Positions 31,154 to 50,636 of a stretch of 64,000 bases of DNA are shown one piece after another (within the stretch, counting starts at the first letter, position 1; each line of letters starts with the position of its first letter). A model generated the notes under the pieces. The model had not been told where the DNA came from. It did no database searches and saw nothing but the letters and a program-made list of their open reading frames with translations. The DNA lies in the NCBI GenBank assembly GCA_024653485.1, contig JANLFY010000008.1, forward strand, positions 62,001 to 126,000, in the 5' to 3' direction. Made by a program: the position numbers and the translations under genes. Source of the stretch: Bacillota bacterium. Its GTDB lineage: Bacteria > Bacillota > SHA-98 > UBA4971.

Positions 31154-31270
31154 CCCCGGACCCTCTTTTTCGAGTCGCCTGAGCGCTGAGGCCGCGAACG
31201 ACGCCCTCAGCGGGACGAAAGAAATACATGATGCTGAGCAAATTTTGCCCGCCCTTCACCGGCCGCCTTC

Positions 31271-31310
31271 CGCGCTTCCAGCGCGCATCCTCACACAACG
31301 CGCTTTGTGT
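31271..31310 (+). promoter_or_regulatory. Two dyads upstream of the flagellar Sigma-54-like promoter
   Basis: CGCGCT-TCC-AGCGCG (31271-31285) and ACACAA-N6-TTGTGT (31293-31310) are perfect dyads. They are centred about 81 and 57 bases before the predicted transcription start. They could be binding sites for an enhancer-binding activator; that is inference. Confidence 0.4.
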
Positions 31311-31332
31311 CGAACGCTGTCCCATTTCCAGT

Positions 31333-31348
31333 TGGCACCATATTTGCT
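31333..31348 (+). promoter_or_regulatory. Sigma-54 (-24/-12) type promoter of the flagellar locus
   Basis: TGGCAC, five bases, then TTGCT matches the Sigma-54 consensus TGGCAC-N5-TTGCW exactly, with the obligatory GG and GC ten bases apart. It lies on the coding strand 92 bases before the flgB start. The predicted start point is near 31359. No convincing SigA or SigD promoter competes with it here. Confidence 0.65.
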
Positions 31349-31439
31349 AAGCTTACAGGTGAGTCTCTGTCTCTCCGTACGCTGTTAACCGCGAACACGC
31401 CGAAGATGTCGAAGATGTCGAAGACGGAGGGGTGTCGTG

Positions 31440-31796
31440 ATGCCTGTTCTCGGAGATCAGACGATTGTCGCCTTGTCGAAAGTGCTGGATGCGCTGTCGC
31501 TCCGGCACGAAGTCACGGCTGACAACATCGCCAACGTCAATACCCCTGGCTTCAAGGCAAGGCGTGTCTTGTTTGAGGACCAGCTCAAGGCGGCGATCTC
31601 CCGTGGTGACCCGGGATCTTGGCAGCCCACCATTGAGGAGGACCATCTCTCGGTGAGGCGCGACGGGAACAGCGTCGACATAGATCTCGAGATGGCGTGC
31701 CTGGCAGAAACCACGATGATGTACAGCGCCATGTCTCGTCTCGTATCAGATCGTTTCAGCCTGCTAAAGTACGTCATCAGCGAGGGGAGGCGATGA
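31440..31796 (+). CDS. flgB: Flagellar basal-body rod protein FlgB
   Basis: FlgB is a proximal rod subunit, exported by the flagellar secretion system. The N-terminal rod/hook motif is LSLRHEVTADNIANVNTPGFKARRV, and the C-terminal helix ends SRLVSDRFSLLKYVI, both needed for coiled-coil assembly. It is 118 aa, normal length. The ATG at 31440 has GGAGGGG upstream; a GTG one codon before is possible. It is the first gene of the flagellar locus, with a short 9-bp repeat (CGAAGATGT) in its leader. Confidence 0.95.
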   Translation: MPVLGDQTIVALSKVLDALSLRHEVTADNIANVNTPGFKARRVLFEDQLKAAISRGDPGSWQPTIEEDHLSVRRDGNSVDIDLEMACLAETTMMYSAMSRLVSDRFSLLKYVISEGRR

Positions 31797-31799: not shown

Positions 31800-32264
31800 A
31801 TGGGCGTTTTTTCATCCTTCAGGATAAGTGCCACAGGTCTCGCCGCTGAACGCCTTAGAATGGACGTTATTGCCAACAATATCGCCAACGTCAACACGAC
31901 GCGCACGGAGGACGGGGGGCCTTACAGAAGGCGGCAGGCCGTGTTCCAGGCGCTCGTGACCCGTTTCTGGAGAACTGGCTTCGGGACGAGCGAGCAGCGC
32001 GGCCTTGGCCGGAGGGTGGCCGAGGCGCCCGGTCGGGGTGTGGCGGTCGTGGGAATAGTGGAGGATCCGTCTCCGCCACGCATGGTGTACGATCCCGGCC
32101 ACCCGGACGCGGATGCCCGCGGGTACGTGGCAATGCCCAACGTCGATCCAGTGAGAGAGCTCGTGGACATGATCTCGGCGACGCGGGCTTACGAGGCGAA
32201 CGTCACCGCCCTCAACGCGGCGAAGACGATGGCTATGAGGGCGCTCGAAATAGGCAAGGGATGA
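31800..32264 (+). CDS. flgC: Flagellar basal-body rod protein FlgC
   Basis: FlgC is the second proximal rod protein. It opens with [33 protein letters not shown], the rod-protein motif, and ends with [31 protein letters not shown], the conserved C-terminal rod/hook helix. At 154 aa it is complete. It starts three bases after the flgB stop, so the pair is co-translated. Confidence 0.96.
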
Positions 32265-32365
32265 TGCTTGTGCGTAAGGCTTGTGCGTGAGATGCGCGGG
32301 CCGTTTCCGTGATGAGGTGCCGGTGTCCTGACGCGAGGCTTCAGCACTAGGGGTGGGGTGGTGTG

Positions 32366-32668
32366 ATGGACATCAAGATCAGCTCGACGCTGCAGAAGAC
32401 GCTGGACGAGCTCGACCGCAGGAGCGCGACGGGAGCCCAGGCGACGCTGGAGGACTTCAAGGAGATGCTGGACGATGCCATCGACACGGTGAACAACCTC
32501 CAGAGGAACGCCGACAAGCTCACCCAAAAGCTCGCCACAGGCGAGCTGAAGGACCTTCACCAGGTCATGATAGCCGTGGAGGAGGTAAACGTCGCCCTGC
32601 AGCTCACGATGCAGATACGTAACAAAATCGTCGAGGCTTACCAAGAAGTCATGAGGATGCAGGTGTAA
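32366..32668 (+). CDS. fliE: Flagellar hook-basal body complex protein FliE
   Basis: FliE links the MS-ring to the proximal rod. The 100-residue protein has the typical helical body and the conserved end LHQVMIAVEEVNVALQLTMQIRNKIVEAYQEVMRMQV. The ATG at 32366 is preceded by GGGGTGGGGTGG. It sits about 100 bases after flgC and three bases before fliF. Confidence 0.95.
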   Translation: MDIKISSTLQKTLDELDRRSATGAQATLEDFKEMLDDAIDTVNNLQRNADKLTQKLATGELKDLHQVMIAVEEVNVALQLTMQIRNKIVEAYQEVMRMQV

Positions 32669-32671: not shown

Positions 32672-34462
32672 ATGGCAGCCATCGGGCAGAACCTTGGGCG
32701 CCAGACGCGCTCGCTGTGGGACCAGATGACGTCAAGCCAGAAGCTCATGGTCCTTCTCGCGATCGCCTTGGGAGTGGTCGCCATGGTGCTTCTCTTGAGC
32801 AGAGCGGGCAAGACCGAAATGGTGCCGCTTTACACCAACCTCTCAGCGAGTGACGCGGCGGACATCGTGACCAAGCTAAGGGAAATGCGTATCCCCTATG
32901 AGCTTTCAGATGGGGGTACTACCGTCAAGGTGCCGTTTTCTGACGTGTACGAGACCCGAATGGACTTGGCCAGTCAAGGCCTTCCCAAGGGAAGCACCGT
33001 TGGATTCGAGATCTTCGACAAGACGACTCTTGGCGTCACGGAGTTTACTCAGAAGATGAACTACCGGAGGGCGCTCCAGGGAGAGCTCACCCGCACGATA
33101 ATGCAGCTTCGCGAGGTCGAGGACGCACGGGTCCACATCGCCATTCCGGAGCCGGAGTTGTACACCGACGAAAAGAAGCCGCCGACGGCCTCGGTGATGT
33201 TGAAGCTGCGTAGCGGGGCGACGCTGACCAAAGGACAGGTGCAGGGGATCGTGAGGCTGGTGTCGTCGAGCGTGGAAGGGCTGACTCCCGGCAACGTGAC
33301 GGTGCTCGATGTGGACGGCAACATTCTTTACGCTGCCAGCGAGGATTCCGAAACAGGAGTGATCGCGTCCCTTTCCGTGAGCCAGCTAGAGGCAAAGAGG
33401 GCGTACGAGAAGGAGCTTCAGAAGAGCGTCGAGACCATGCTCACCGAGGTGCTCGGCCCGAGGAAGGTCGTCGTGCGCGTGAGCGCGGAGATCAACTTCG
33501 ATCGCAGGGAGCAGAACAGCGAGCTCTTCCAGCCCACACCCACGGGGCTTGGGGTGATCCGCGAACAAACGAAGGTGCACGAGGTTCGTTCCACTGCGTC
33601 CGACCCGGCCTCGGGGATACCGGGGACCGGATCCAACGTAGACACTCTGGACGCGGTGGTCGCGCAGGGCAACTCGATCTCGGGAGCGCCGGCTGGGACG
33701 GTTGCTCAGGCTTCCAACGGCGGTGAGCGCCTCGACGTTGCCGCGACGGCACAGATGACAGGCGAGCCAGACCAGGGCACGGCACAGGCCGCCGCCAACG
33801 TGGCGGCGGAAGGCGTCTACCGCACCGGGGCAGGCCAGGCGGAGACGAGCGGCGAGGAGAGGTCGGAGGAGACTACCCGTTACGAGATATCCCGGGTCGT
33901 CGAGCACACCATCAAGGCGCCCGGCGAAGTGCGAAGGCTCTCGGTCGCGGCCATAGTCGCATCCCCCTTGAGTGACAATCAGCTTCAAGCCATCACGAGG
34001 TCCATCGGGGCGGCGGTGGGGATCGACCCCGGCAGAGGTGATTCGCTCATCGTCGAAGCCATGGAATTCGGGGCGCCATTGACACCTGAGGCTGAGGAAG
34101 CATCCACCGCGGGGGCGGGGAGGATCGAAGGGCCTCCGAACGTGGGAGAAGTCTTGCTGGCCAACATGGAATACGTGCTAGCAGGGATAATCGCGCTCTT
34201 CCTGGTAGGGCTCGTGATTTCAGTGGTCCGCCAAAGAACCTTCGAGAGACCAGTGGCGGTGCCGGTGCAGGCGGCCACACCCCTTCCCATCGCCTCGGAG
34301 GGCGCGCCTGCTGCGCCTGTAGCCGCGGCGCAAGAATCAGGACAGGGGGAAAGACAGGGGGACGCCGGCAGGCTGGTGAAGGAGCTCCCGGCGCGTCCTG
34401 CTCCCGCGGCAGAAACGGCAGCGAGGGTGATATCCGGATGGATGGACGAGGACAAGAGGTGA
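32672..34462 (+). CDS. fliF: Flagellar MS-ring protein FliF
   Basis: FliF forms the membrane-embedded MS-ring, the base on which the motor is built. A first membrane helix (MVLLAIALGVVAMVLLL, about residues 25-45) leads into the YscJ-like ring domain (VPLYTNLSASDAADIVTKL; FTQKMNYRRALQGELTRTI). A periplasmic domain with low-complexity inserts follows, then a second helix (LAGIIALFLVGLVISVV, about 495-515). The cytoplasmic tail ending RVISGWMDEDKR should bind FliG. Length (596 aa) is slightly above average because of Ala/Gly/Thr-rich stretches at about 340-400 and in the tail. Confidence 0.96.
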   Translation: MAAIGQNLGRQTRSLWDQMTSSQKLMVLLAIALGVVAMVLLLSRAGKTEMVPLYTNLSASDAADIVTKLREMRIPYELSDGGTTVKVPFSDVYETRMDLASQGLPKGSTVGFEIFDKTTLGVTEFTQKMNYRRALQGELTRTIMQLREVEDARVHIAIPEPELYTDEKKPPTASVMLKLRSGATLTKGQVQGIVRLVSSSVEGLTPGNVTVLDVDGNILYAASEDSETGVIASLSVSQLEAKRAYEKELQKSVETMLTEVLGPRKVVVRVSAEINFDRREQNSELFQPTPTGLGVIREQTKVHEVRSTASDPASGIPGTGSNVDTLDAVVAQGNSISGAPAGTVAQASNGGERLDVAATAQMTGEPDQGTAQAAANVAAEGVYRTGAGQAETSGEERSEETTRYEISRVVEHTIKAPGEVRRLSVAAIVASPLSDNQLQAITRSIGAAVGIDPGRGDSLIVEAMEFGAPLTPEAEEASTAGAGRIEGPPNVGEVLLANMEYVLAGIIALFLVGLVISVVRQRTFERPVAVPVQAATPLPIASEGAPAAPVAAAQESGQGERQGDAGRLVKELPARPAPAAETAARVISGWMDEDKR

Positions 34463-34468: not shown

Positions 34469-35476
34469 TTGGCACCATCCATTGAACTCAGTGGAAAGAG
34501 AAAGGCGGCCATAGCTCTCGTGAGCCTGGGGTCCGAGATGTCGGCGGAGGTATTCAAGTACCTCGACGAGGCAAAGATCGAGCAACTTACCCTTGAGATC
34601 GCGGGCCTGGGCAGTGTTCCTTACGAAACCCGCAAGCAGGTGTTGGAGGAGTTCTACGAGAGGTGCGAAGCACAGGAGTTCGCAACGGGCGGCGTGGAGT
34701 ACGTAAGGCAAGTTCTGGAGCGGGCGCTCGGCGCCCACCGTGCTTCCGAGATCATCGACAGGATCACGGCTGCTCTTCAGGAGAAGCCTTTCAGCTTCGC
34801 GCGTCAGATAGACCCGGCCCAGCTCGTGAACTTCATCGAAAACGAGCACCCTCAGACCATAGCCCTGATCCTGGCCTATCTCCGTCCCGAGCAGTCGGCG
34901 GCGGTGCTCTCCGCTCTACCCGAAGGGCTTCAAACAGAAGTAGCCGTGCGGCTTGCTGAGATGGACAGGACGTCCCCCGAGGTCGTCGCGGAGGTGGAGA
35001 GGGTCCTGGAGAATAGGCTCTACGCCATAGGAGGCCAGAGCTACAACTTCGCGGGTGGGACGAAGGCGCTGGTGGACGTGTTGAACCGTGTGGACAGGGC
35101 TACCGAGAAGACCATACTCGAAGAATTGGAGGAGCAGAACCCGGCGCTCGCAGAGGAAGTCAAGAACCTCATGTTCGTGTTCGAGGACATCACACTCCTC
35201 GATGACCGGGCGATCCAGACCTTCCTCAAGGAGGTCGACACGAAGGACCTCGCCCTAGCGCTGAAGGCCTCGAGCGACGAGGTCAAGAAGAGGATCTTCA
35301 GCAACATGTCGGAGCGCGCCGCTGAGATGCTGCGGGAGGACATGGAGTTCATGGGCCCGGTCCGCTTGAGGGTTGTGGAAGAGGCTCAGCAACGCATAGT
35401 GACCGTCATCCGCAGGCTGGAGGAAGCGGGGGACATCGTCATCGCGAGAGGTACGGAGGACGAGGTGCTTGTCTAG
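34469..35476 (+). CDS. fliG: Flagellar motor switch protein FliG
   Basis: FliG is the C-ring subunit that receives torque from the stator. It has the N-terminal FliF-binding part (KRKAAIALVSLGSEMSAEVFKYL), the middle EHPQTIALILAYL motif (the EHPQ that contacts FliM), and the C-terminal torque helix LALALKASSDEVKKRIFSNMSERAAEMLREDMEFMGPVRL with its charged residues. At 335 aa it is complete. The start codon is TTG just after fliF; its 3' end overlaps fliH. Confidence 0.96.
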   Translation: MAPSIELSGKRKAAIALVSLGSEMSAEVFKYLDEAKIEQLTLEIAGLGSVPYETRKQVLEEFYERCEAQEFATGGVEYVRQVLERALGAHRASEIIDRITAALQEKPFSFARQIDPAQLVNFIENEHPQTIALILAYLRPEQSAAVLSALPEGLQTEVAVRLAEMDRTSPEVVAEVERVLENRLYAIGGQSYNFAGGTKALVDVLNRVDRATEKTILEELEEQNPALAEEVKNLMFVFEDITLLDDRAIQTFLKEVDTKDLALALKASSDEVKKRIFSNMSERAAEMLREDMEFMGPVRLRVVEEAQQRIVTVIRRLEEAGDIVIARGTEDEVLV

Positions 35477-36212
35477 GATCATCAAGGCACAGGAGTTGCG
35501 TGGCAACCCCGCGCTCGTGGGAAAGGGACCGCTTGAGGCGATCCTTGCCGCGCTTCCCGACGAGGCGGTCCCAATCAGGGGCGGTGCAGGCGGATCGTTG
35601 GGACAGGGAGGCGATCCGGCCGCGCTTGCCCGCTCCATCATCGAGCAGGCGGAACGGGCCGCCAAGGCTCGACTTGATGAGGCGACTGGGGAGAGCGCAC
35701 GGATTCTCAAGGAAGCCTACGAAAGAGGCTACGAAGACGGGCGTGCCGAAGCCACCGCCAAAGTGATGGAGCGCGCGAGGGAGTTCCTGGAGTACCTGGA
35801 GTCCCTTGCGCGTGGGGTGGCCGAGGCCGCGGAGGACGCCGTGAGAGCGGCGGAGGACACCGTGGCGGATCTCGCGATCGAGGTGGCGGAGAAGATCTTG
35901 AGGCACGAGGTGTCCGTCGACGGGTCCGTGGTCCTGGAGATGGTCAGGGAGTCTGTCGAGAAGGCGAAGGCCGGAGGGTCCGTCAGAATCAGAGTGAGCG
36001 CGTGGGACCTGGAACGAGTCAAGGATTTCCGTGAAGAGCTTATCAGGATGGCAGACGACGTGGAAGCCATCGAGATCATTGAAGATCCCAGGGTAGAACC
36101 GGGCGGGTGTATCGTGGACACGGAGTTCGGGTCGGTGGACGCAAGGCTTGGAACGCAGCTGCGCGAGATCAGGAGGGCTTTCTTTGGCAACGGCGACGCC
36201 AATGGCAACTGA
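35469..36212 (+). CDS. fliH: Flagellar export ATPase regulator FliH
   Basis: FliH binds and controls the export ATPase FliI and docks it to the C-ring. The protein has a long helical middle (IIEQAERAAKARLDEATGESARILKEAYERGYEDGRAEA) and the C-terminal FliH/HrpE domain with LAIEVAEKILRHEV and EDPRVEPGGCIVDTEFGSVDARLGTQL. It starts with TTG overlapping the fliG stop by 8 bases, so translation is coupled. Length (247 aa) is normal. Confidence 0.92.
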   Translation: MSRIIKAQELRGNPALVGKGPLEAILAALPDEAVPIRGGAGGSLGQGGDPAALARSIIEQAERAAKARLDEATGESARILKEAYERGYEDGRAEATAKVMERAREFLEYLESLARGVAEAAEDAVRAAEDTVADLAIEVAEKILRHEVSVDGSVVLEMVRESVEKAKAGGSVRIRVSAWDLERVKDFREELIRMADDVEAIEIIEDPRVEPGGCIVDTEFGSVDARLGTQLREIRRAFFGNGDANGN

Positions 36213-37617
36213 GATCCCGACGCCCTACCGTGTATGCTACGGCACGTCTCGCCGGGAGGGGCTACACCGAAATGGGTTTCAGGGGAACGGGCGCGGCCCC
36301 GCGACGAACCTTGACGTGTCGAGGTTCCGGAGCGCCATGAGGGCTTGTGACCCGTTGCGGGTGAGCGGAAGGGTAGTGCAGGTCATAGGGCTCGTGGTGG
36401 AGTCCATGGGCCCGCCAGCGCATGTGGGCGAGATCTGCCGGATATACACGCGGGGCCAGAGGGCGCCGATCCACGCTGAGGTCGTGGGATTCCGGGAAGG
36501 CAAGACCCTCCTGATGGTTCTCGGCGACAGGAACGGCATCGAGCCCGGAAGCGAGGTCGTGGCGAGCGGAAGGGAGGCCGTGGCGCCGGTGGGCGAGGGG
36601 CTCTTAGGGCGTGTAATCGATGCCTTCGGACGGCCGCTCGACGGCAAGCCGCCCATCAGGATCGAAGCGGAATACCCCCTGTTCAACGCGCCTCCAGCCC
36701 CGCTGGAACGCGCCAGGATCTTGGAACCTCTCGCCCTCGGCGTGCGGGCCGTGGATGCGGCAATCACGTGCGGCAAGGGGCAGAGGCTCGGGATATTCGC
36801 CGGGAGCGGCGTCGGCAAGAGCACACTGCTGGGGATGTTCGCCAGGAACACCTCCGCGGACGCGAACGTGATAGCGCTCGTCGGCGAGAGAGGCCGCGAG
36901 GTCCGCGAGTTCATAGAGAAGGACCTGGGCCCCGAGGGTCTCAGGCGGTCGGTCGTGGTCGTGGCCACGTCAGACCAGGCAAGCCTCGTGCGGCTGAAAG
37001 GGGCTTTCCTCGCGACGGCCATTGCGGAATACTTCCGCGACACCGGGCGCGATGTGCTCCTTATCATGGATTCCCTTACCCGCCTCGCCATGGCGCAACG
37101 GGAGGTGGGACTCGCCATTGGGGAACCGCCCACCACGCGGGGGTACACGCCGTCGGTGTTCTCAATGATGCCGCGCCTGCTGGAACGAGCGGGGAACTCG
37201 TCGTCTGGAAGCATCACAGGACTTTACGCGGTGCTGGTCGAGGCGGATGACATGAACGAGCCCATAGCCGACGCGGCGCGGAGCATTCTCGACGGCCACA
37301 TAGTCCTTGCGCGGGAGCTTGCCGCCATGAACCACTACCCAGCCGTGGACGTGCTGGCGAGTGTGAGCAGGGTGATGTCAGACGTCGCGGACCAAGCGCA
37401 CGTCAAGGCTGCCGCGAGGATGCGGGAGGCGCTCAGCATCTATAAGGAAGCGGCGGACCTCATAAACATCGGAGCCTACGTGCCTGGCACTAACCCGAAG
37501 ATCGACTGGGCCAAGACGATGATCGACACCATAAACGCATTCCTCAAACAGGGGATCAACGAGAAGGCGGACTACGGAGAGACCGTGTCCAGGCTGCGGA
37601 GCATGTTCGGATCATGA
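36184..37617 (+). CDS. fliI: Flagellum-specific export ATPase FliI
   Basis: FliI is the hexameric ATPase that energises unfolding and entry of flagellar substrates. It is related to F1-beta and carries Walker A (FAGSGVGKSTLLGMFAR), ALVGERGREVREFIEKD, Walker B (VLLIMDSLTRLAMAQREVGLA) and the signature PPTTRGYTPSVFSMMPRLLER. The TTG at 36184 is chosen because AGGAGGG lies six bases upstream, inside fliH; ATG 36202 lacks a ribosome site. The overlap with fliH suggests stoichiometric coupling of the two partners. Confidence 0.95.
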   Translation: MATATPMATEIPTPYRVCYGTSRREGLHRNGFQGNGRGPATNLDVSRFRSAMRACDPLRVSGRVVQVIGLVVESMGPPAHVGEICRIYTRGQRAPIHAEVVGFREGKTLLMVLGDRNGIEPGSEVVASGREAVAPVGEGLLGRVIDAFGRPLDGKPPIRIEAEYPLFNAPPAPLERARILEPLALGVRAVDAAITCGKGQRLGIFAGSGVGKSTLLGMFARNTSADANVIALVGERGREVREFIEKDLGPEGLRRSVVVVATSDQASLVRLKGAFLATAIAEYFRDTGRDVLLIMDSLTRLAMAQREVGLAIGEPPTTRGYTPSVFSMMPRLLERAGNSSSGSITGLYAVLVEADDMNEPIADAARSILDGHIVLARELAAMNHYPAVDVLASVSRVMSDVADQAHVKAAARMREALSIYKEAADLINIGAYVPGTNPKIDWAKTMIDTINAFLKQGINEKADYGETVSRLRSMFGS

Positions 37618-38117
37618 AAAGGTTCAGGTTTCGCCTGGAGAAGCTGCTCGAGGTGAGGCGGCTGAGAGAAAACGCCCTCCAGCAGGACCTGGCGCGGGCC
37701 CAGGAGGCGCTCCGGCGAGAGAAAGGCGTGCTCGAAACGCTGGGGGCGGCGCGCGGCGCGACCCTTGAAGCCCTACGGGCGAACGTGTGCGGCACCCTGA
37801 ATGTCCAGGATATCGCTGCTTACTACCGTTACCTTGGGTTCCTGGCCCACCGAATCGAGGAACAACGGGCGGTCGTGGAGCGCGCGGCCCGGGAGGAGGC
37901 CGCGAAAAGGGACGCGCTCATCGCGGCGAGACGCAGGCGCAAGGTCGTCGAGAAGCTTAGGGAACGGGCGTACGCGCGCTACCGCGAGGGCATCCTCCGG
38001 GAAGAGCAAGCGTTCCTCGACGAGGTGGGATCCATGAGATACGCTCGGAAAGGAGGTGAAGACTTGAGTGGAAACGTCCTTTTCCGTGCGCTTGGACCTG
38101 GTGAAGGCGACAGCTGA
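37614..38117 (+). CDS. fliJ: Flagellar export chaperone FliJ
   Basis: FliJ is the coiled-coil stalk of the export ATPase. The 167-residue protein begins KRFRFRLEKLLEVRRLRENALQQDLARAQ and is almost wholly predicted helix with heptad-like Arg/Glu/Leu patterns, typical of the family. It starts in an ATGA overlap with fliI, and its last 50 bases overlap the start of the fliK-like gene in another frame. Confidence 0.88.
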   Translation: MKRFRFRLEKLLEVRRLRENALQQDLARAQEALRREKGVLETLGAARGATLEALRANVCGTLNVQDIAAYYRYLGFLAHRIEEQRAVVERAAREEAAKRDALIAARRRRKVVEKLRERAYARYREGILREEQAFLDEVGSMRYARKGGEDLSGNVLFRALGPGEGDS

Positions 38118-40896
38118 CATTTGCCAAGCCGGCGCGGGAGGGGTTCGAACTGTCGGGGCTGCACTTTCAGAGACGGACTCGGGAGGCTGCGGCGCTGACT
38201 TCCGGGCAGAGCTTGCCTTGCGTATTGGGGCGGCAAACGCGAACGGCTCAAGGCCCTGGACGCACGTTGATGCGGGTGACCCTGTCCCTGCGGGGACTGT
38301 TGCGGTAGGCGACCCCGGGGCCATCGCCGAGCGAAGCGTGTACGAAGCCCACGAGGTCGTCCGGATCGGCGAGACTGACTTGGCCGAGGAGACGGTGGAG
38401 GCGGGCAAACCGAGCGAGGGTGGCAAGCCCGGTGAGGCGGGCGAGACGGGCAGCGTCGGGAGAACGGATAGCACCGGGCTAAGGGACGAGCAGGGGGATG
38501 CCTTTTCTCAATGCGACGCACGGGCGATTCGCCGCACCAAGAGTTGCTGCTCGGATGGCGCGGGTCGCGCTCCCTGCGAAGAGTCCTCCGCCTCCGTGTC
38601 CAGGCTTGTGGCGGCACACGGCCTCTTGGCCGCCCAGGGTGGTGCCCAGGCTCAGGTGGAGGGAAACCCCGCGGACGCGAAACCCATGGAGGCGATTACG
38701 GCGCCTGCGGCGACGACTGCCGCCGATGCGCTGACACTGAGCGGGGGTGTGGTCCGTGACACGGGTAGGGTTTCCGAGGCAGTAGGCCTGCCCGAGCACG
38801 GCGGCGCAAGCTCCGTGCGGCGGGGTGGTGCCGTGAGCCCAGAGAACACGCGGATGGAGCTGGCGCCAGGGGCATCAGCGCGCAACCGCAAAGCTGAGCG
38901 AGCGGCTGCGCAGGATGGGCCCGCGCCGGCGGAACGCGCGCATGCGCGCCGGGCGAGGCAACCGCTGCCAAACGGCGTACGGACGGCGGAAGAGTGGGGC
39001 CAGGTAGAGAAGAGAGACAGACTGGGGGCCGGAGGCTATGAGAAGGTCTTCGCTCTGAAGACCAGCGCGTCGGGGGCAATGCAAGTGCCGGTGACTCCTT
39101 GCGAACTGGCGGACGAGGTTGAGATGAGCCTCGCTCCGGCGGAGCCATTGCGTGACGGATCTCGATCGACGTCGACGCCTCGACCGGGCGAGTCTGGGGA
39201 GGGTGGCGCACCGGTTGACCACGCGGCCGGGGGCGCGTCCGCGAGCGGGAAGCGGGGGGCGGCGCCCGACATCCTTGCCGATTTTCGCGGAACAGGAAGC
39301 ATCGAGGGCCATGTCCGAGTCCTGGGCAAAGACTGGGGGCGCCGCGACGCGGCGGTCGCTTGCCGTGGCGGCGAGACGGTGCACCGGACCCCTAGGCTCG
39401 AGGATTCCAAGGTTGTGGGCATGACGGGGAGCGAGGTGTCCCGTACTGAAGGATGCCCGCCCGACGGAGCGGACCACGTAGTGCTCGAGATGGCTCCAGG
39501 GGAAGACTCGGAGGCGCGGCCATCCTCGGCGCATGCGTGTGATCTTCCAGCACAGGCGAGGATGGGGAGGCCAGAATGGACAGACAGCATCTCCGCATCG
39601 GAACCTGCCTCGGAAGCGCCCTCGGAACCGGCCTTGGAACAGGCCTTGGAACCTCGACCTAAGGGACTCGAGGCACCCCTCGATGCGGATCGGTCGAATC
39701 TCGGGGTGAAGTCCGCGTTCATTGTCCGCAGCGAAAGTTCGGTCGAGCGAACGTCCGTGGCCGTGGGCGTGAGCAAGGGCGCCGTCCCCCGTGTGGGGTC
39801 TGCCCAAGTGAGGTGCGAGGTGACCAGCCAGTCGCCACGAGGACAAGACGCGGCGATCTCCGGTTCGCATGTTGACGTTCTGGCAGAAGGCGGGACGATG
39901 CTTGAGTCGGCGGTGGGCACACCGGTAGGTCTCTCGCTAGAGAGTCGTTCAGAGGCCGACACGCAGCCTAGAGGCGCCGCCATCATACCGGTCGAGACCA
40001 ATGTGAGGCTAGGCTCGCACGGTGACGATGGCGATGCGTCCACAAGACAGGCGGGCATTCCTCTCGAAGGCGGTGTGAATAGTCCTCCGGAGGCCCGCTC
40101 CGGACGACCGCTCGGGATTCGCGTGCCGAAGGCTGGGTCGCAGGTCACCGGCCGAACCCTTGTGGCTCAAGCGGAGAAGAAGGCGGACACCCAGGCGCCG
40201 GCTCAGACGCGGTTCGCCGTCGGATGCCCGGAGTCCCCGCGAACGCCCGTCAGAGAGCGGGTGGCCGGGTCAAGCGGGAGGACAGGTGGCGCGACGACGC
40301 GATGGGCCGCGGAGAACGAGAAAGCCGAACCCGTATCAGAAAAGCCTTTCGCCGCGGAATGCGGGATGTCCGAACCCCGCCCTCTCCACGGAAGAGCAGA
40401 GATGCCTCCGATGCCGGGAGATCGTGGGATGCCCGAGCGCGCGGTGCCCATCACGGCCCGAGCGGTGGTCGATCAGATCGTCAGAAGGGCGGAGATACGG
40501 CTCGGAAGATCTGAAGCGGAGATGGTCATAGACCTAAAACCCGATGTCTTGGGGAGGGTCCACCTCCGCATAACCGCTGAACCCGGACGAATCGTGGCAC
40601 AGATCAGGGCCGAGAACTCGATTACGAGGCAGCTCATCGAAGCCGGATTAGGTGACCTGAAGGTAGCCCTTGCTGAGCGAGGTCTGGACCTCGGGAGCGT
40701 CACCATTTCTGGGGGCTTCGGAGCCGGGATCGCTTGGGACGGGTCGAGGTCGAGGTGGGCGGAGGGCGGCGCGGGGCGTGGCGAATCGGGGGCCGCCCAG
40801 GGAGGCGAGAGAGCAGACTCGCTGCGCGCCGTAGGTCAGTTCGCTGTAGCGCGGCCGTTCCACGGGGCGGCGCACATAGTGGATTGCGTGGCGTAG
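38068..40896 (+). CDS. fliK: Flagellar hook-length control protein FliK, unusually long
   Basis: FliK measures hook length and switches export specificity. Only the C-terminal domain (about residues 795-895) is conserved: VVDQIVRRAEIRLGRSEAEMVIDLKPDVLGRVHLRI, then IVAQIRAENSITRQLIEAGLGDLKVALAERGLDLGSVTI, the Flg_hook signature. The preceding 790 residues are low-complexity Ala/Gly/Glu/Ser/Arg sequence with small local repeats (for example SEPASEAPSEPALEQALEP). The total of 942 aa is about twice a typical FliK. The GTG at 38068 has AAAGGAGGTGA upstream. Codon use keeps the high-GC third-position bias of real genes throughout, so I regard the long frame as genuine. Confidence 0.85.
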   Translation: METSFSVRLDLVKATADICQAGAGGVRTVGAALSETDSGGCGADFRAELALRIGAANANGSRPWTHVDAGDPVPAGTVAVGDPGAIAERSVYEAHEVVRIGETDLAEETVEAGKPSEGGKPGEAGETGSVGRTDSTGLRDEQGDAFSQCDARAIRRTKSCCSDGAGRAPCEESSASVSRLVAAHGLLAAQGGAQAQVEGNPADAKPMEAITAPAATTAADALTLSGGVVRDTGRVSEAVGLPEHGGASSVRRGGAVSPENTRMELAPGASARNRKAERAAAQDGPAPAERAHARRARQPLPNGVRTAEEWGQVEKRDRLGAGGYEKVFALKTSASGAMQVPVTPCELADEVEMSLAPAEPLRDGSRSTSTPRPGESGEGGAPVDHAAGGASASGKRGAAPDILADFRGTGSIEGHVRVLGKDWGRRDAAVACRGGETVHRTPRLEDSKVVGMTGSEVSRTEGCPPDGADHVVLEMAPGEDSEARPSSAHACDLPAQARMGRPEWTDSISASEPASEAPSEPALEQALEPRPKGLEAPLDADRSNLGVKSAFIVRSESSVERTSVAVGVSKGAVPRVGSAQVRCEVTSQSPRGQDAAISGSHVDVLAEGGTMLESAVGTPVGLSLESRSEADTQPRGAAIIPVETNVRLGSHGDDGDASTRQAGIPLEGGVNSPPEARSGRPLGIRVPKAGSQVTGRTLVAQAEKKADTQAPAQTRFAVGCPESPRTPVRERVAGSSGRTGGATTRWAAENEKAEPVSEKPFAAECGMSEPRPLHGRAEMPPMPGDRGMPERAVPITARAVVDQIVRRAEIRLGRSEAEMVIDLKPDVLGRVHLRITAEPGRIVAQIRAENSITRQLIEAGLGDLKVALAERGLDLGSVTISGGFGAGIAWDGSRSRWAEGGAGRGESGAAQGGERADSLRAVGQFAVARPFHGAAHIVDCVA

Positions 40897-41039
40897 GGCT
40901 CCGCCAGCTGACGCCCGGGGCTGACCGCGCACCCGTGACAGGGGCCGGCTGGGCTGGCAGGGTTAGTTGGGCAGGCTGCGGCGGGCCGGGCGGACCGCGG
41001 CGGGAAGCTTCGTATTCCTGAGGAAAGGAGGGAAAGCCA

Positions 41040-41450
41040 GTGAATATCCGAGCGACATCCGGGGCAGGCGCGCAAGCGTCGCCGACGAGCGCCGCTGAGA
41101 AGGGCGACAGTAGAACGGAGCTCGGCAAGGACGCGTTTCTGAAACTGCTCCTCACCGAGCTGCGATACCAGGATGCGTTCAAGCCGGTGGATGACAGAGA
41201 GATGATCGCGCAAATGGCTCAGTTCTCCACGCTCGAGCAGATGCAGAACCTGAGTGTGGCCATGGAGGGCCTCGCGAAGATGCAGCACGCCACTCAGGCT
41301 GCGGCGCTCATCGGTAAGAAGGTCACGGCCGCGGTGGACGAAGGGGTCGTTACCGGCACGGTTTCCGGCGTGAGGTTCAGAGACGGCGTCGCGTACCTCG
41401 TTGTGGAGGGGAAAGAAGTTCTCGTGACCGATGTGAGCGAGATCGCGTGA
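41040..41450 (+). CDS. flgD: Flagellar hook assembly scaffold FlgD (short form)
   Basis: FlgD caps the growing hook and guides FlgE polymerisation. The N-terminal motif LGKDAFLKLLLTELRYQDAFKPVDDREMIAQMAQFSTLEQMQNL is diagnostic. At 136 aa it is a short FlgD that lacks the C-terminal FLG-ig and tudor-like domains of the enterobacterial protein, as in Bacillus and clostridia. The GTG start follows AGGAAAGGAGGG. Confidence 0.94.
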   Translation: MNIRATSGAGAQASPTSAAEKGDSRTELGKDAFLKLLLTELRYQDAFKPVDDREMIAQMAQFSTLEQMQNLSVAMEGLAKMQHATQAAALIGKKVTAAVDEGVVTGTVSGVRFRDGVAYLVVEGKEVLVTDVSEIA

Positions 41451-41462
41451 GCGCGAGGGACG

Positions 41463-41897
41463 ATGCGTCGAGGAGTGGTTGTCTTGGTCGAGAAGGTGCC
41501 GTCCGAATTCCAGATACCGATGCGAGCGGCTGTGCCCGCCGGGGGTGTTGACAAGGTCCGCAGCAAACCCGCTGGCGACACCGTGACCTCCGCTGCCTCT
41601 GCCCCGTCGTTCGGAGAGGTCTTGAGGCGGGAGATCGAGGGGCAGAGCGTGAGGTTTTCCGGCCATGCCCAGATGCGAATGAGGGCCAGGAACATCTCCC
41701 TTTCAGAGGTGGATATGGCAAGATTGGCCCAGGCGGTGGACAGAGCTTCCGCGAAAGGCGCGAGGGAGTCGCTCATACTCATGGACAACCTCGCACTCGT
41801 GGTGAGCATCAGGAACCGCACGGTCATAACCGCGGTGGACGGGGAGCACATCAAGGAAAACGTGTTCACCAACATCGATAGCGCGGTGATAGTGTGA
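41463..41897 (+). CDS. Conserved flagellar operon protein (TIGR02530-like)
   Basis: This small protein is found between flgD and flgE in most Bacillota flagellar loci. The C-terminal half contains the family pattern FSGHAQMRMRARNISLSEVDMARLAQAVDRASAKGARESLIL, then VVSIRNRTVITAVDG and KENVFTNIDSAVIV. Its job is not established; the position suggests a role in hook or hook-cap assembly or its control. The ATG at 41463 is used; TTG 41484 has a better GAGGAG site and is a serious alternative. Confidence 0.85.
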   Translation: MRRGVVVLVEKVPSEFQIPMRAAVPAGGVDKVRSKPAGDTVTSAASAPSFGEVLRREIEGQSVRFSGHAQMRMRARNISLSEVDMARLAQAVDRASAKGARESLILMDNLALVVSIRNRTVITAVDGEHIKENVFTNIDSAVIV

Positions 41898-41997
41898 CTG
41901 CGACGAGACCGCGCCGTGGGGCTGGACCTCTTTCGAGGGGGCCCCGGAGCCGCCGGCGACACCGGCGGCCAGCGAAGGAAGGAGGTCAAATACGACA

Positions 41998-43362
41998 ATG
42001 CTACGGTCGATGTTTGCCGGAGTCTCCGGCTCGAGATCGCACCAGGTTTGGATGGACGTCATTGGCGATAACATCGCCAACATCAACACGCCTGGCTACA
42101 AGACAGGCAGGGTTACGTTTCACGAACTCTTGGTCCAGACGATCCGTGGTGGTGGCGCCCCGGTGCAGGACGGAAGGGGAGGCATCAACCCCATGCAGGT
42201 CGGGCTCGGGACAAGCCTTAGAAGCATAGACACTTGGCACACCCAGGGCAACATCCAGGTGACCGAGGTGCCGAGCGATCTCGCCATTGATGGCATCGGG
42301 TTCTTCGTGTTGAGCGACGGGCTCAAGACGTACTTCACCCGCGACGGCAGCTTCCAGATCGGTGCTGACGGTGTACTCGTGAGCCCTGCGACTGGTTATC
42401 GAGTACAGGGCAGGCCCGTCGACCCTTCCACAGGTGAGATCGACACAACTAAACCACCCCAGGACATCAAGATCCTGATAGGACAGGTCATGGAGGCTGC
42501 TGCAACGAGGAACACCATTCTGCGCGGAAACCTTGACTCACAGGCAGTCGCTGGGGACAGCTTCAGCAGCCTTCTCCAAGTATACGATTCTCTCGGGCGG
42601 CTCCACGAGATGCCGATCACTTTCAGGAAGCTGGATCCCACAGTACAGATCAATGACCCTGCAACAGGCACCACGACGAATATCGGCGATCGGGCGTGGT
42701 ACTGGGAAGTCACAGAACCTCTTGAGCCGGTAGGAGACCCTTCTAAGGTCGACGTGGTGGGCAAGGGTTTCCTTCTATTCAACGAGAACGGCAAGGTCGA
42801 CACAGAAGCGACTGAGAACGCCTGTGAGAATGCCTTGGCGACTTATCCAGACTTGGAAGCTGGCCCGTATGATTACCCTCCTACGTTCAAGATCCTATCG
42901 ACCAATGGGTCCGCCGAACAGGACGTCAGGCTAGATGTAGAAAGCCTCACCCAGTACGCCGAACCTTCGTCGGTGTCCATGAGTTTCCAGGATGGTTTCC
43001 CCGCGGGCACTCTCGAGACGTTTGCTGCTGACGCGGATGGGGTGATCACCGGCATCTACTCCAACGGCCAGTATCGCACGCTGGCCCAGGTGGTGCTGGC
43101 GAACTTCTCGAACCCTGGCGGCCTTCTCCGGATGGGCGGAGGGTTCTACCAGGTGTCGCCCAACTCGGGCGCTCCTATAATTGGCGAGCCCATGAAAGAC
43201 GGCAAGGGCAAGATCATCGGCGGTGCCATCGAGATGTCGAACGTTGATCTTGCCAAGCAGTTCACAGACATGATCATCTCGCAGCGCGGCTTCCAGGCGA
43301 ACTCCAGGGTGATAACGACCGCTGACGAGATGTTACAGGATCTCCTGAGTCTCAAGAGATAA
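41998..43362 (+). CDS. flgE: Flagellar hook protein FlgE
   Basis: FlgE polymerises into the hook, the universal joint between rod and filament. It opens with RSMFAGVSGSRSHQVWMDVIGDNIANINTPGYK, has the flagellar basal-body FlaE-type middle domain with DLAIDGIGFFVLSDG, and ends with FTDMIISQRGFQANSRVITTADEMLQDLLSL, the C-terminal hook/rod helix. At 454 aa it is complete. A GAAGGAAGGAGG site precedes the ATG. Confidence 0.95.
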   Translation: MLRSMFAGVSGSRSHQVWMDVIGDNIANINTPGYKTGRVTFHELLVQTIRGGGAPVQDGRGGINPMQVGLGTSLRSIDTWHTQGNIQVTEVPSDLAIDGIGFFVLSDGLKTYFTRDGSFQIGADGVLVSPATGYRVQGRPVDPSTGEIDTTKPPQDIKILIGQVMEAAATRNTILRGNLDSQAVAGDSFSSLLQVYDSLGRLHEMPITFRKLDPTVQINDPATGTTTNIGDRAWYWEVTEPLEPVGDPSKVDVVGKGFLLFNENGKVDTEATENACENALATYPDLEAGPYDYPPTFKILSTNGSAEQDVRLDVESLTQYAEPSSVSMSFQDGFPAGTLETFAADADGVITGIYSNGQYRTLAQVVLANFSNPGGLLRMGGGFYQVSPNSGAPIIGEPMKDGKGKIIGGAIEMSNVDLAKQFTDMIISQRGFQANSRVITTADEMLQDLLSLKR

Positions 43363-43853: not shown

Positions 43854-44107
43854 AGGGCCAGGTGCCTGATCTGCGGAGGCCGGTCAGGTTTTGTCGCGTG
43901 ACGCACCAGGGTGTTGGCCGGGGCGCCCTAGCAGACACGGCCGGAAACAGGGCTTTGCTCCGGACCACGGGCGGCTTCACCGGGCATGAGGGCTGTGGGG
44001 GATTGGTTCGCGGATGACGCGGACACGCGACGGTGCCCGGGCGGGTTTGCCTCATCACTACGGCACTGCGACTGATGCAGGTGCCACTCGACTCACGGGG
44101 GCATGAC

Positions 44108-44956
44108 ATGGACCTTACGACTTTCATCGGGATCGTCGCTGGACTCGTGCTTGTGGGTGTGGCCATCGAGGTGGGTGGGTCGCTCCAGAGCTTCATCGAC
44201 CTTCCGTCGGTGATGATCACGATCGGTGGCACCGTGGCTGCGACGCTCATCAGCTTTCGTTTGGATGACATCAAGAACGTGCTGAGGGTCACGAAAGTCG
44301 CGTTCACGCGCCGTCCAACGCAGCTCACAGAGGTCATGGTGCAGATCATCTCCCTGGCAGAACTTGCGCGGCGTGAGGGTCTCCTTGCGCTGGACAACAG
44401 CCTGGACAAGGTGAAGGACGACTTCTTGAGACACGGCTTGCAGCTAGTGGTGGATGGAGTGGATGCGACGGTGATACGGGAGGTTCTGGAGACAGACCTC
44501 GACGCCATCGAAGAGCGCCACAAGATGGGGAGAAAGCTGTTCGATCAAATGGCGCTTTTCGCCCCTGCGTTCGGCATGATCGGGACGCTCATCGGGCTCA
44601 TACAGATGTTGCGGAACATAAACGATCCGAGCGCCATTGGCCCTGGCATGGCGGTCGCGCTCGTCACGACGTTTTACGGGGCCATGCTCGCATATCTCGT
44701 GTTCATGCCCATCTCAGGGAAGCTGGCGGTGCGGGGGTCAGAGGAAGCTCTGGAGAAGCAGATCCTCATTGAGGGCGTCCTCGCGATTCAGTCAGGAGAC
44801 AACCCGAGGATCGTTGAGGAGAAGCTCAGGGCATTCCTGCCTCCCGCCACGAGAGCGCGGGTGGCTTATAAGAGAGGGGTGCATGCGACAGGTAAGCCCG
44901 GCTCCGCGAGGGCAACCGGTGGCCCCGGGAAGGAAACGGCTGGTGCAAAGACATGA
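44108..44956 (+). CDS. motA: Flagellar stator protein MotA
   Basis: MotA is the four-helix stator subunit that converts ion flow into torque. Helices are visible at FIGIVAGLVLVGVAIEVGG, VMITIGGTVAATLISF, FAPAFGMIGTLIGLIQML and GMAVALVTTFYGAMLAYLVFMPISGKL. The cytoplasmic loop carries the FliG-contacting charged region. A Gly/Ala/Arg/Lys-rich tail of about 30 residues follows. The ATG at 44108 is preferred over an upstream in-frame start because it begins directly before helix 1 and follows ACGGGGG. Its stop overlaps motB. Confidence 0.94.
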   Translation: MDLTTFIGIVAGLVLVGVAIEVGGSLQSFIDLPSVMITIGGTVAATLISFRLDDIKNVLRVTKVAFTRRPTQLTEVMVQIISLAELARREGLLALDNSLDKVKDDFLRHGLQLVVDGVDATVIREVLETDLDAIEERHKMGRKLFDQMALFAPAFGMIGTLIGLIQMLRNINDPSAIGPGMAVALVTTFYGAMLAYLVFMPISGKLAVRGSEEALEKQILIEGVLAIQSGDNPRIVEEKLRAFLPPATRARVAYKRGVHATGKPGSARATGGPGKETAGAKT

Positions 44957-45705
44957 GACGCAAGAGGTCGGGTGACGAGGAATCAGGTGGAAGCCCGCCC
45001 TGGATAACGTCATATGCGGACATGACACAACTGTTGTTGACCTTCTTCGTGCTCCTGTTCGCGTTCTCGTCCATCGACGCGATCAAGTTCCGGCAGGCGG
45101 TCATATCGCTTCAGGGCGCGCTTGGCGTGCTCACAGGCGGGCCCCAGCTCCTGAACCCGGGTGAGATGCCGGTTCCAAAGCCTCCGAGCGATATCCGACC
45201 TTCGGGGAAGTCCCAAGTCGAGCTCGAGGGGGTCATGGAGGAACTCCAATCTTTCTTGGAGGCTCAGGCGCTCGCCGAGGACGTGCACCTCGAGATCACG
45301 GAGCGAGGCCTCGTGGTCAGCTTCATGGACAAGGTTCTATTCGATCTCGGCCAGGCAGACCTGCGCCCGGAGGCTCGGCGCGTCCTTGCGGAAGTCGCTC
45401 ACATCTTGCGCAGACTTCCGAACGACATAAGGATCGAGGGACACACGTGCGATCTGCCCATACGCACGGCGAAATTCCCATCGAACTGGGAGCTGTCTAC
45501 CTCGAGGGCGTGCACCGTGCTAAGGTACTTCATCGAGAGCGCGGCCCTTGCTCCGGACAGGTTTACCGCTATGGGGTACGGCGAGTACAGGCCGAAAGTG
45601 CCGAATACGAGCGAGGCAAATAGGGCCCTGAATCGCAGGGTGGATATCGTCATCCTGAAAGAGAAGGAGAAGATGGTGCTTCCGGAGCAGGCCTCCGGGG
45701 AATAG
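44953..45705 (+). CDS. motB: Flagellar stator protein MotB
   Basis: MotB anchors the stator to peptidoglycan and forms the ion channel with MotA. The single membrane helix starts SYADMTQLLLTFFVLLFAFSSID with the essential Asp at residue 23. A linker follows, then an OmpA-like peptidoglycan-binding domain (IRIEGHTCDLPIR; NWELSTSRACTVLRYFIE; NRRVDIVIL). The helix does not by itself say whether protons or sodium drive it. It starts in an ATGA overlap with motA. Confidence 0.94.
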   Translation: MRRKRSGDEESGGSPPWITSYADMTQLLLTFFVLLFAFSSIDAIKFRQAVISLQGALGVLTGGPQLLNPGEMPVPKPPSDIRPSGKSQVELEGVMEELQSFLEAQALAEDVHLEITERGLVVSFMDKVLFDLGQADLRPEARRVLAEVAHILRRLPNDIRIEGHTCDLPIRTAKFPSNWELSTSRACTVLRYFIESAALAPDRFTAMGYGEYRPKVPNTSEANRALNRRVDIVILKEKEKMVLPEQASGE

Positions 45706-45709
45706 GGGG

Positions 45710-46462
45710 ATGAGCTTGCCAACGGGTGTCTCAGGTTATCAAAAGCCTGTGTCGAGCCAAGTTGCGACGTCTGGCGCCTCGAGCCGCGTGCCTGCCACCG
45801 GCGCGGACCGCGCGGGAACGGATCCAGGGAAGACCGCTGCGACGGCGCGGAGCCAGACGGGAGCTGCTGCCGCAGGGTCCAAGCCTCCGGCGAAGGACGG
45901 CTGGGAGGTGCCCGAGAGGCCCGCAGGAGTGGCCTCCGCGAGAGACCTTCGTGCTATGCAGGGGCAACAGCAGGAGGCGAGGGCCCGCAAGCGGAGACTG
46001 CCTCCGGTCATGGTCGTGGGCGGCGTGGTGTTCTGCCTTGCCGCGGCAGCCGGGGCGCTATGGTACACTCGCGGAGCGAACCGACAGGCGGGTATCGGAG
46101 CGAATGGCGCCAGTGTTGCGAACGCGACGAAGCAGGAGCAGAAGCCGGGTCCGACGTACTCGTTCCAGCCGTTCATAGTCAACGTGGCCGGCACAGACGG
46201 AACGCGTTATCTGAAGGCATCCATCAGTGTGGAATGCGCGGACAAGAAGGCAAGTGCAGACATCGCGGCGGTGGAATACAAAGTGAGGGATGCCGTCATT
46301 GCGGTCCTGTCCGCCTGCGACTTGGACGAGCTGACCGACGTATCGAGAAGGGACGCGATAAGAAGCCGTGTGGCCGAGGCGATAGAGAGAGCGCTCCCCG
46401 GCGACGACAAGAGGTCGCCTCGTGTGAGGGGTGTGTACTTCCTCGAGTTTGTCATTCAGTGA
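45710..46462 (+). CDS. fliL: Flagellar basal body-associated protein FliL with long N-terminal extension
   Basis: FliL surrounds or supports the stator at the inner membrane. The membrane helix is at about residues 98-118 (MVVGGVVFCLAAAAGALWY), followed by the periplasmic FliL domain (TYSFQPFIVNVAGTDGTRYLKASISVEC; VRDAVIAVLSACDLDELTD; VRGVYFLEFVIQ). The cytoplasmic part before the helix is about 97 residues of Ala/Gly/Ser/Thr-rich, probably disordered sequence, whereas typical FliL has 10-20. The start is ATG 45710; TTG 45716 is possible. Confidence 0.88.
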   Translation: MSLPTGVSGYQKPVSSQVATSGASSRVPATGADRAGTDPGKTAATARSQTGAAAAGSKPPAKDGWEVPERPAGVASARDLRAMQGQQQEARARKRRLPPVMVVGGVVFCLAAAAGALWYTRGANRQAGIGANGASVANATKQEQKPGPTYSFQPFIVNVAGTDGTRYLKASISVECADKKASADIAAVEYKVRDAVIAVLSACDLDELTDVSRRDAIRSRVAEAIERALPGDDKRSPRVRGVYFLEFVIQ

Positions 46463-46484
46463 CCCTGGACGTGGGGGCGGGAAC

Positions 46485-47483
46485 TTGGACGAGATCCTTT
46501 CTCAAGAGGAGATTAACGCTCTGCTCTCTTCGTTCGCGAAGCAGGAAGTGGAGCGCGCCGCAAAGAGCGGGAACGGCAAGAAGAAGCAGGTGCGGCCGTA
46601 TGATTTCCGCCGTCCCGACAAGCTGTCCAAGGAGCAGCTGCGCACCATTGAGATGATACACGAGACCTTCGCTCGGTTGCTTACGACGTGGATGTCCACG
46701 TATCTGAGGCTGCCGGTCAGGGTCACGCTGACATCAAGTGAGCAGATGTCCTTCGACGAGTTCTCGTCGTCCTTGCCAATCCCCGGCGTCATAGCGGTTT
46801 TCAACATCAGCCCGCCGGACGGTGAGGCCATCCTCTCCCTGGAGCCACTTCTTGCCTTCGGCATGCTCGATAGGGTGCTGGGGGGACCGGGCCAAGCCAA
46901 GGGCAAGCCTCGCGAGCTCACCGATATAGAGCAGCGTCTCATGCAGGATCTCACAGCGAAGGTGCTGGACTTGCTTACCCGTGCGTGGTCCGACGTGACG
47001 GCCTTCTCAGCGCGGCTCGAGAATATAGTCGCGAGCCCCCAATTCGCGCAGATCACGGCCGAGACGGAAACCGTCGGCACAGTGTCTCTCCAGGTCACCT
47101 TGGGCGAGATCACGGGCGGTGTCACGCTGTGCTATCCGTACCCCGTTCTTCAGCCGGTGCTGCCGAGGCTTGTGGCGACGCGGTGGTTCAAGAAACAGAC
47201 CGGGCGAGGTGCGGAGGCTAGCTCGGCGGAGGCCATCAGGCAGCGTCTGGCGAACGTTCAGGTGCCCGTGACCGTGGAACTTGGCCAAGCCACCGTCCTA
47301 GTGGGCGACTTCCTCGACCTTGCGGTGGGGGACATCATCAAGCTCGACTCCAGGCGCGGCGAAGACCTCGTTGTGCGGGTGGGTGGAGGAGCCAAGTTCG
47401 TGGCGCGACCAGGGGTAATCGGGAAGAGGCTTGCGTTCCAGGTGTCGCGCGTTCTGTACGACAGGGGAGGGACCTTGAGATGA
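46485..47483 (+). CDS. fliM: Flagellar motor switch protein FliM
   Basis: FliM is the middle C-ring subunit that binds CheY-P and FliG. The start LDEILSQEEINALLSSF is the conserved CheY-binding peptide, here initiated by TTG at 46485 behind GGGGGCGGG. The CheC-like middle domain and the C-terminal surface-presentation domain (NVQVPVTVELGQATVLVGDFLDLAVGDIIKLD) are both present. At 332 aa it is full length. It overlaps fliN by four bases. Confidence 0.94.
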   Translation: MDEILSQEEINALLSSFAKQEVERAAKSGNGKKKQVRPYDFRRPDKLSKEQLRTIEMIHETFARLLTTWMSTYLRLPVRVTLTSSEQMSFDEFSSSLPIPGVIAVFNISPPDGEAILSLEPLLAFGMLDRVLGGPGQAKGKPRELTDIEQRLMQDLTAKVLDLLTRAWSDVTAFSARLENIVASPQFAQITAETETVGTVSLQVTLGEITGGVTLCYPYPVLQPVLPRLVATRWFKKQTGRGAEASSAEAIRQRLANVQVPVTVELGQATVLVGDFLDLAVGDIIKLDSRRGEDLVVRVGGGAKFVARPGVIGKRLAFQVSRVLYDRGGTLR

Positions 47484-48100
47484 TCGATGACCCAGTTGGC
47501 GAGGGGACGAGTGTCGCGCCTGATCCGGACGACGTGGGGGCCCCGGAACCACTTGGAGAACGGGCGGGAAATGGTGCAGGCCCAGGCCAAGGCTCAGGTC
47601 CAGGTCCAGGCCCAGGCCCGGGCGCGGGCGCGGTCACGGGCACGGGCGCACGCGCAGGCGTAGGCGCAGACTTGGGCGCAGGAGCAGACGCATGGACAGA
47701 TACAGGAGCGGATGAAGACGCGTTCGCAAACGCCCGGGGCCGCGCTGTCGCGAACGAGGCGCCTAGGTCCAGCCTGGAGAGGGCGTTCGAGAGGGCGGAA
47801 TTCGCGCCGTTCGGCGACAGGCAACGCCAGGGAAGCCACAGCAATATCGATCTCCTGCTCGACGTGCCTCTACCCGTGACAGTCGAATTGGGAAGGACGA
47901 GCATGACCATACGCGACATCCTCGACCTCGCCCCGGGTTCCGTTGTGGAGCTGGACAGGGTGGCCGGTGAGCCGGTAGACATCCTGGTCAATGGGAAGCT
48001 GGTGGCGCGAGGGGAAGTCGTGGTCATTGACGAGAACTTCGGCGTTCGCGTCGTGGACATCATCGCTCCTGCGGAAAGGTTGAGTGGCACCAAGGCGTGA
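47480..48100 (+). CDS. fliN: Flagellar motor switch protein FliN with repeat-rich N-terminus
   Basis: FliN forms the base of the C-ring. Only the C-terminal SpoA domain (about residues 125-200) is conserved: LLLDVPLPVTVELGRTSMTIRDILDLAPGSVVELDRVAGEPVDILVNGKLVARGEVVVIDENFGVRV. The first 120 residues are Gly/Pro/Ala-rich, with GPGPGPGP and GAGA stretches from a hexanucleotide repeat. There is no CheC-type domain, so this is FliN, not the Bacillus-type FliY. It starts in an ATGA overlap with fliM. Confidence 0.9.
   Translation: MIDDPVGEGTSVAPDPDDVGAPEPLGERAGNGAGPGQGSGPGPGPGPGAGAVTGTGARAGVGADLGAGADAWTDTGADEDAFANARGRAVANEAPRSSLERAFERAEFAPFGDRQRQGSHSNIDLLLDVPLPVTVELGRTSMTIRDILDLAPGSVVELDRVAGEPVDILVNGKLVARGEVVVIDENFGVRVVDIIAPAERLSGTKA
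47577..47634 (+). repeat. 6-bp microsatellite-like repeat inside fliN
   Basis: About nine units of the type CAGGCC or CAGGTC, grading into CGGGCG, run in frame and encode alternating Gly-Pro/Gln/Ser and Gly-Ala dipeptides. Confidence 0.75.
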
Positions 48101-48139
48101 CGTGCCTTTGTTTGAACCGGCTCGGAGGTGGCAGCTGCT

Positions 48140-50633: not shown

Positions 50634-50636
50634 GCG

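Follow-up and report, generated by a model that had tools for sequence, protein, structure and literature searches.

The flagellar genes of the organism studied here are very probably switched on by sigma-54 polymerase acting with a dedicated sensor/activator pair. Our analysis starts from the window, a 64,000-nucleotide stretch of DNA from an uncultured member of the Bacillota that probably has two membranes, in which an exact -24/-12 promoter element stands before flgB. This promoter, and a palindrome upstream of it, recur in every related flagellated species that we examined and also in a few more distant Bacillota. The pair that would drive it is encoded elsewhere in the genome, behind fliC and fliD.

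Organization of the flagellar genes

The genes from flgB through sigD all lie on one strand, with those from fliF to flhA downstream of the flgB sigma-54 site:

31437..31796 (+), flgB (TIGR01396)
31800..32264 (+), flgC (TIGR01395)
32363..32668 (+), fliE (PF02049)
32672..34462 (+), fliF, MS ring (TIGR00206)
34469..43362 (+), fliG, fliH, fliI, fliJ, fliK, flgD, a Flagellar_put protein and flgE (Pfam; fliG and fliI from translations and gene order only)
44033..53804 (+), motA-like, motB-like, fliL, fliM, fliN, fliO, fliP, the fliQ region (putative), fliR, flhB and flhA (Pfam)
53794..56788 (+), flhF, a flhG-like ParA ATPase and a YcgR-type PilZ protein (Pfam; flhF and flhG by domain plus gene order)
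56793..57590 (+), sigD/fliA-type sigma-28 factor, the last regulator of the cluster (Sigma70_r2, r3 and r4, plus gene order)

Promoter-like sites inside the flgB-sigD cluster are few and weak, which makes it plausible that the whole cluster is read as one long transcript. After it, the window holds genes for a LacI-type regulator, an L-fucose-isomerase-like protein and an FGGY sugar kinase (59727-63933).

The sequence-only reading had described this cluster as a complete flagellar locus, a description that does not hold: the flagellar gene set of the genome is split over three loci, with flgF-L and fliC/fliD in the other two. At the first of these, a site at C20:22954 precedes flgF, flgG, flgA, flgH (L-ring), flgI (P-ring), a gene for a flgJ-type rod-binding protein, flgK, flgL and then cheA. 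Encoding both FlgH and FlgI implies that the cell is bounded by an outer membrane, like diderm Firmicutes (PMC5007114). Upstream of fliC lies TAAA-N15-GCCGATAT, a sigma-28-type promoter. Of the six relatives scanned, which include one lacking upstream sequence, three have a similar site before this gene. Since sigD ends the flgB cluster and fliC carries a sigma-28-type promoter, we infer an order of control in which sigma-54 would act first and sigma-28 second.

The promoter before flgB and its conservation

Four conserved features mark the region upstream of flgB:

31217..31230 (+), conserved block GAAAGAAATACATG 5' of the palindrome, shared by 6/6 genus members, of which one carries a single change
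31234..31252 (+), imperfect palindrome CTGAGCAAATTTTGCCCGC, candidate activator-binding site/enhancer, in all class flgB and flgF regions
31308..31324 (+), tandem Spo0A-type boxes TGTCGAA-N3-TGTCCCA with a 10-bp period, candidate Spo0A site, invariant core in 6/6 genus members
31333..31348 (+), -24/-12 sigma-54 promoter element of flgB, exact consensus, best in the window, in 15/15 class flgB genomes

Read directly, the bases at 31333-31348 are TGGCACCATATTTGCT, a match to TGGCAC-N5-TTGCW with GG and GC 10 bp apart; the motif and spacing previously reported on the coding strand before flgB are thus present. The element is the sole zero-mismatch match to the -24/-12 pattern within the window. 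Scored with a sigma-54 matrix built from general knowledge of the consensus, it reaches 18.7 bits, the top of the window, against 13.4 for the runner-up and maxima of 11.3-17.3 in 20 shuffled windows. From its end (31348) to the flgB ATG at 31440 there are 91 nt, an alternative start being the GTG at 31437, and transcription is predicted to start at about 31359. The 3.0-Mb genome holds 13 zero-mismatch matches to TGGCAY-N5-TTGCW, and genome-wide one-mismatch counts show no excess over a control pattern. Such counts prove nothing alone, and the case therefore rests on conservation.

That conservation is extensive. Fifteen genomes of the class have flgB, six from the genus, five from the sister genus and four from two other families. 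In every one, the genome of the window and its 14 relatives alike, TGGCA[CT]-N5-TTGC[AT] stands upstream of flgB, at a distance of 91-151 bp from the first matched codon. A pattern covering the class sites appears in only ~0.1% (flgB) and ~0.4% (flgF) of shuffled 450-bp upstreams. The element was absent from the 15 other-class genomes first read, with flanks from the same search, where no site exceeded 8.5 bits.

An alignment of the six genus members reveals conserved islands set in diverged sequence, namely GAAAGAAATACATG, TGAG.AAATTTT.C.CG, TGTCGAA-N3-TGTCC, the -24/-12 element and a downstream TGTCTCT block. The sister genus has GAAAGAAGTGC, which is related to the GAAAGAAATACATG block at 31217-31230, and a further block, CTGTCTCT at 31367-31374, is also conserved near the promoter in the genus. 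Two dyads noticed earlier before flgB, CGCGCT-3-AGCGCG at 31271-31285 and ACACAA-6-TTGTGT at 31293-31310, do exist, but they are not among the conserved islands, and we have set them aside as activator sites.

Between the palindrome and the promoter, TGTCGAA-N3-TGTC (31308-31321) stands in all six genus members; the tandem box pattern has no other match in the window, nor in the fetched loci other than the flgB regions of the genus. TGTCGAA is the 0A box consensus (PMC7643835), and the genome encodes two Spo0A_C proteins. At the level of the genus, to which this finding applies, the boxes may serve to repress the flagellar switch. Separately, the flgB leader at 31400-31424 contains three near-identical 9-bp repeats (CGAAGATGT-like) holding two more TGTCGAA; these TGTCGAA-bearing repeats were not seen in the flgB leaders of relatives.

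A candidate enhancer shared by two promoters

The palindrome, with a consensus of approximately GTGRGMAAAWTTTKCYCAC, lies 93-130 bp 5' of the -24 element in 15/15 class flgB regions. Across the genome, 31234-31252 alone matches its core pattern without a mismatch; among the one-mismatch matches, that at C20:22807 precedes the exact -24/-12 site at C20:22954. The palindrome is common to just the two sigma-54 flagellar promoters of the genome, those of flgB and flgF. The same combination of -24/-12 element and palindrome stands before all 15 class flgF operons. When a matrix is trained only on flgB palindromes, it also recognises those before flgF, and shuffled sequences do equally well in 0-4 cases out of 300; the sister-genus flgF palindromes are weak, at 9.5-13.4 bits. 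The palindrome at 31234-31252 is a likely enhancer of the flgB promoter.

The activator and its kinase

The earlier suggestion that the early flagellar genes depend on RpoN and an activator encoded elsewhere fits what the genome contains. Both rpoN (PF04552, E 2e-64) and NtrC-type activators were found, the latter among 12 strong sigma-54 activators (PF00158), which together with the retention of the motif across the class bears out the reading of the element as a sigma-54-type promoter. Moreover, a candidate can now be named. The protein encoded at C12:8434-9849 (L105) combines a PF00072 receiver, a PF00158 Sigma54_activat domain and a PF02954 Fis-type HTH, and its gene sits behind fliC and fliD, before a GAF-PAS-HisKA-HATPase kinase. 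The kinase adjoins the activator in the 13 class loci examined, and on every contig that extends far enough the genes run fliD-x-activator-kinase.

Orthologues of the activator, at 59-89% identity, are present in 14 of 15 flagellated class genomes; in G012, an assembly 81% complete, the promoter and palindrome are present and the activator was not found. Two class genomes without FlgB and FlgF have only paralogues, at ~50% identity. A 300-genome sample of the phylum yielded four members of other classes with a close relative of the activator, and these four have fliD, activator, kinase, -24/-12 element, flgB, flgC and fliF in order. The 18 activator proteins of the fliD-linked type group in a single clade with support of 0.998, separate from the sampled paralogues. 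Among PDB matches of the activator are FlrC (E 5e-73) and FleQ, with NtrC-family and ZraR chains scoring higher. From its linkage and its distribution, the flagellar activator is very probably this fliC-fliD-linked NtrC-type response regulator, acting with its histidine kinase.

Activators contact sigma-54 through their GAFTGA loop. Throughout the fliD-linked clade (L105:8434-9849; L111-L123, L154-L157) this loop reads GAFTSA, GAFTNA or GAFTHA, with only the fifth residue changed, whereas the genome's remaining 11 activators have GAFTG(A/S) or GSFTGA. Our literature search found no description of the GAFTNA and GAFTSA variants.

Elsewhere in the genome, on C1, L103:1368-5318 encodes a protein with iron-only hydrogenase, PAS and histidine-kinase domains and adjoins a gene for an NtrC-type response regulator; an exact -24/-12 site lies 117 bp past the end of that regulator gene.

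Proposed circuit and alternative readings

These findings enable us to propose a model for flagellar control, which as a whole we regard as highly likely. The motifs and genes, their synteny and their conservation are observed. In the model, 31333-31348 would be the functional sigma-54 promoter of the cluster headed by flgB, and the activating system would be the FlgR/FlrC-like, flagellum-dedicated two-component pair on C12 beside fliC-fliD. Once phosphorylated, the regulator would bind the 31234-31252 palindrome as an upstream enhancer, loop to the sigma-54 polymerase and remodel it. The same activator would drive flgF-G-A-H-I-J-K-L through the same arrangement of promoter and palindrome, and the sigD product of the flgB cluster would then turn on the sigma-28-type fliC promoter. 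In the genus only, the Spo0A boxes between enhancer and promoter would probably let sporulation control damp the switch. Regulator binding, activation, operon extent, the role of Spo0A and timing are the steps we infer. Weighing against the model are the altered GAFTGA loop of the activator, its absence from the G012 assembly although both sites are there, the lack of any genome-wide excess of one-mismatch promoter matches, and the weakness of the flgF palindromes in the sister genus.

The palindrome might instead be the site of another regulator, either a repressor or a global factor, the activator itself being enhancer-independent. There is precedent for this in the FlgR of Helicobacter pylori, which has no DNA-binding domain and acts independently of an enhancer (PMC9696931), and in two other-class genomes, G055 and G096, the sigma-54 site and the activator-kinase pair are found but the palindrome is not. 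However, it is in these same genomes that the activator has changed: that of G055 ends before the HTH and that of G096 has a degenerate HTH, and both flgB promoters retain the -24/-12 element without the palindrome. G128 and G235, also of other classes, have both an intact HTH and the palindrome upstream of flgB. This covariation, in which an intact HTH accompanies the palindrome and a lost or decayed HTH accompanies its absence, gives our strongest indication that the palindrome is read by the activator. It comes from few genomes, though, and as G055 and G096 are members of a single family, the loss may have happened just once. Given the covariation, and the restriction of the palindrome to the two sigma-54 flagellar promoters in the genome, we consider a role for the palindrome outside activation unlikely. 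The HTH-less and degenerate activators themselves (L175:7427-8692 in G055 and L176:6240-7703 in G096) may represent a second origin of FlgR-like enhancer independence.

It is likewise conceivable that the promoter is real but responds to a different activator among the 12, such as the C1 or C7 NtrC-type protein, leaving the fliD-linked pair with some other job. Twelve strong candidates are available, and two other receiver-type activators are related to the fliD-linked one at ~50% identity. Yet the fliD-linked activator is the only one whose occurrence matches that of flagella and whose gene lies in flagellar loci, the C1-type activator occurs also in the two genomes without flgB, and it is with the HTH of the fliD-linked protein that the palindrome covaries; a substitute activator is thus quite improbable. 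Finally, a chance match, with flgB under an ordinary SigA/SigD promoter as in Bacillus, could appeal to the unremarkable genome counts and to the crudeness of our sigma-70 scan, but is very hard to credit given that the element stands in 15/15 genomes at flgB and, independently, at flgF amid diverged surroundings, that only ~0.1-0.4% of shuffled upstreams have such a site, and that the same crude scan found no sigma-70-like site in 30700-31600.

The dedicated pair acting with sigma-54 remains our preferred reading, and it carries a further implication. With the MS-ring and export genes lying behind the flgB promoter, the pair would be the top switch unless the cluster contains internal promoters that have gone unseen. 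A more ambitious and decidedly tentative version, which we think may well be wrong, would make the FlgR-like pair and sigma-54 the top switch of the whole regulon, with basal body, export and sigD forming one tier and Spo0A integrated into it. This would be an old trait of outer-membrane Bacillota that persisted in scattered classes and disappeared from the others, with one branch having become enhancer-independent through joint loss of the HTH and the enhancer.

Comparison with known systems

Flagellar control by sigma-54 together with an NtrC-type pair is familiar from Proteobacteria, the main group in which this scheme is known. Our literature search, with most subscription papers outside its scope, found no description of this arrangement in the Bacillota. 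An earlier study linked sigma-54 with flagella and LPS (Francke et al., PMC3162934), and a 2025 survey of sigma-54 regulons reported no significant motility enrichment in some phyla, covering the Bacillota by individual organisms only (PMC12316311). The main text of the paper on diderm Firmicutes flagella does not contain the word 'sigma' and does not treat sigma-54 (PMC5007114). In the present case, Bacillota that have P- and L-ring genes share a sigma-54 flagellar regulon that is both coherent and conserved, and for which a promoter, a probable enhancer, an activator and a kinase can be named. This makes it possible to ask whether sigma-54 control accompanies outer-membrane flagella generally and disappeared when the outer membrane did. 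One can also ask how a flagellar pair functions when the export apparatus, which its counterparts elsewhere sense, lies behind its own promoter.

In gene order, the main cluster resembles the Bacillus-type fla/che operon, running flgB-flgC-fliE-fliF-fliG to a sigma-28 factor near the end and sharing a sigma-28-type flagellin promoter, but differs in its sigma-54-type head promoter and in having the P-/L-ring genes flgI/flgH in a second operon. That division into a flgB-type main cluster and a second cluster of flgF, flgG, flgA, flgH, flgI and flgJ is the one seen in diderm Firmicutes (Negativicutes, Halanaerobiales) (PMC5007114).

In regulatory logic, the closest likeness is to FlgSR of Campylobacter and Helicobacter, FlrBC of Vibrio and FleSR of Pseudomonas, each a flagella-dedicated NtrC-type regulator and kinase with sigma-54 acting on rod genes (PMC7064773, PMC9696931). 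As in those systems, flagellin would come later under sigma-28, and FlhF and FlhG-like proteins are present. In Campylobacter, Vibrio and Pseudomonas, however, the products of the MS-ring and export genes are made at the start, and it is their assembly that sets off the pair (PMC7064773), whereas here these genes share the cluster behind the sigma-54 promoter. The present system further differs in belonging to the Bacillota, in its conserved AT-rich palindromic candidate enhancer, in the altered GAFTGA loop and in the Spo0A-type boxes within the promoter. The activators of G055 and G096, lacking an HTH or having a degenerate one and encoded next to flgB promoters without the palindrome, recall H. 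pylori FlgR, but form a separate lineage whose close relatives retain HTH and enhancer, as the genome of the window does. The proposed system is a known logic found in a new lineage with new wiring.
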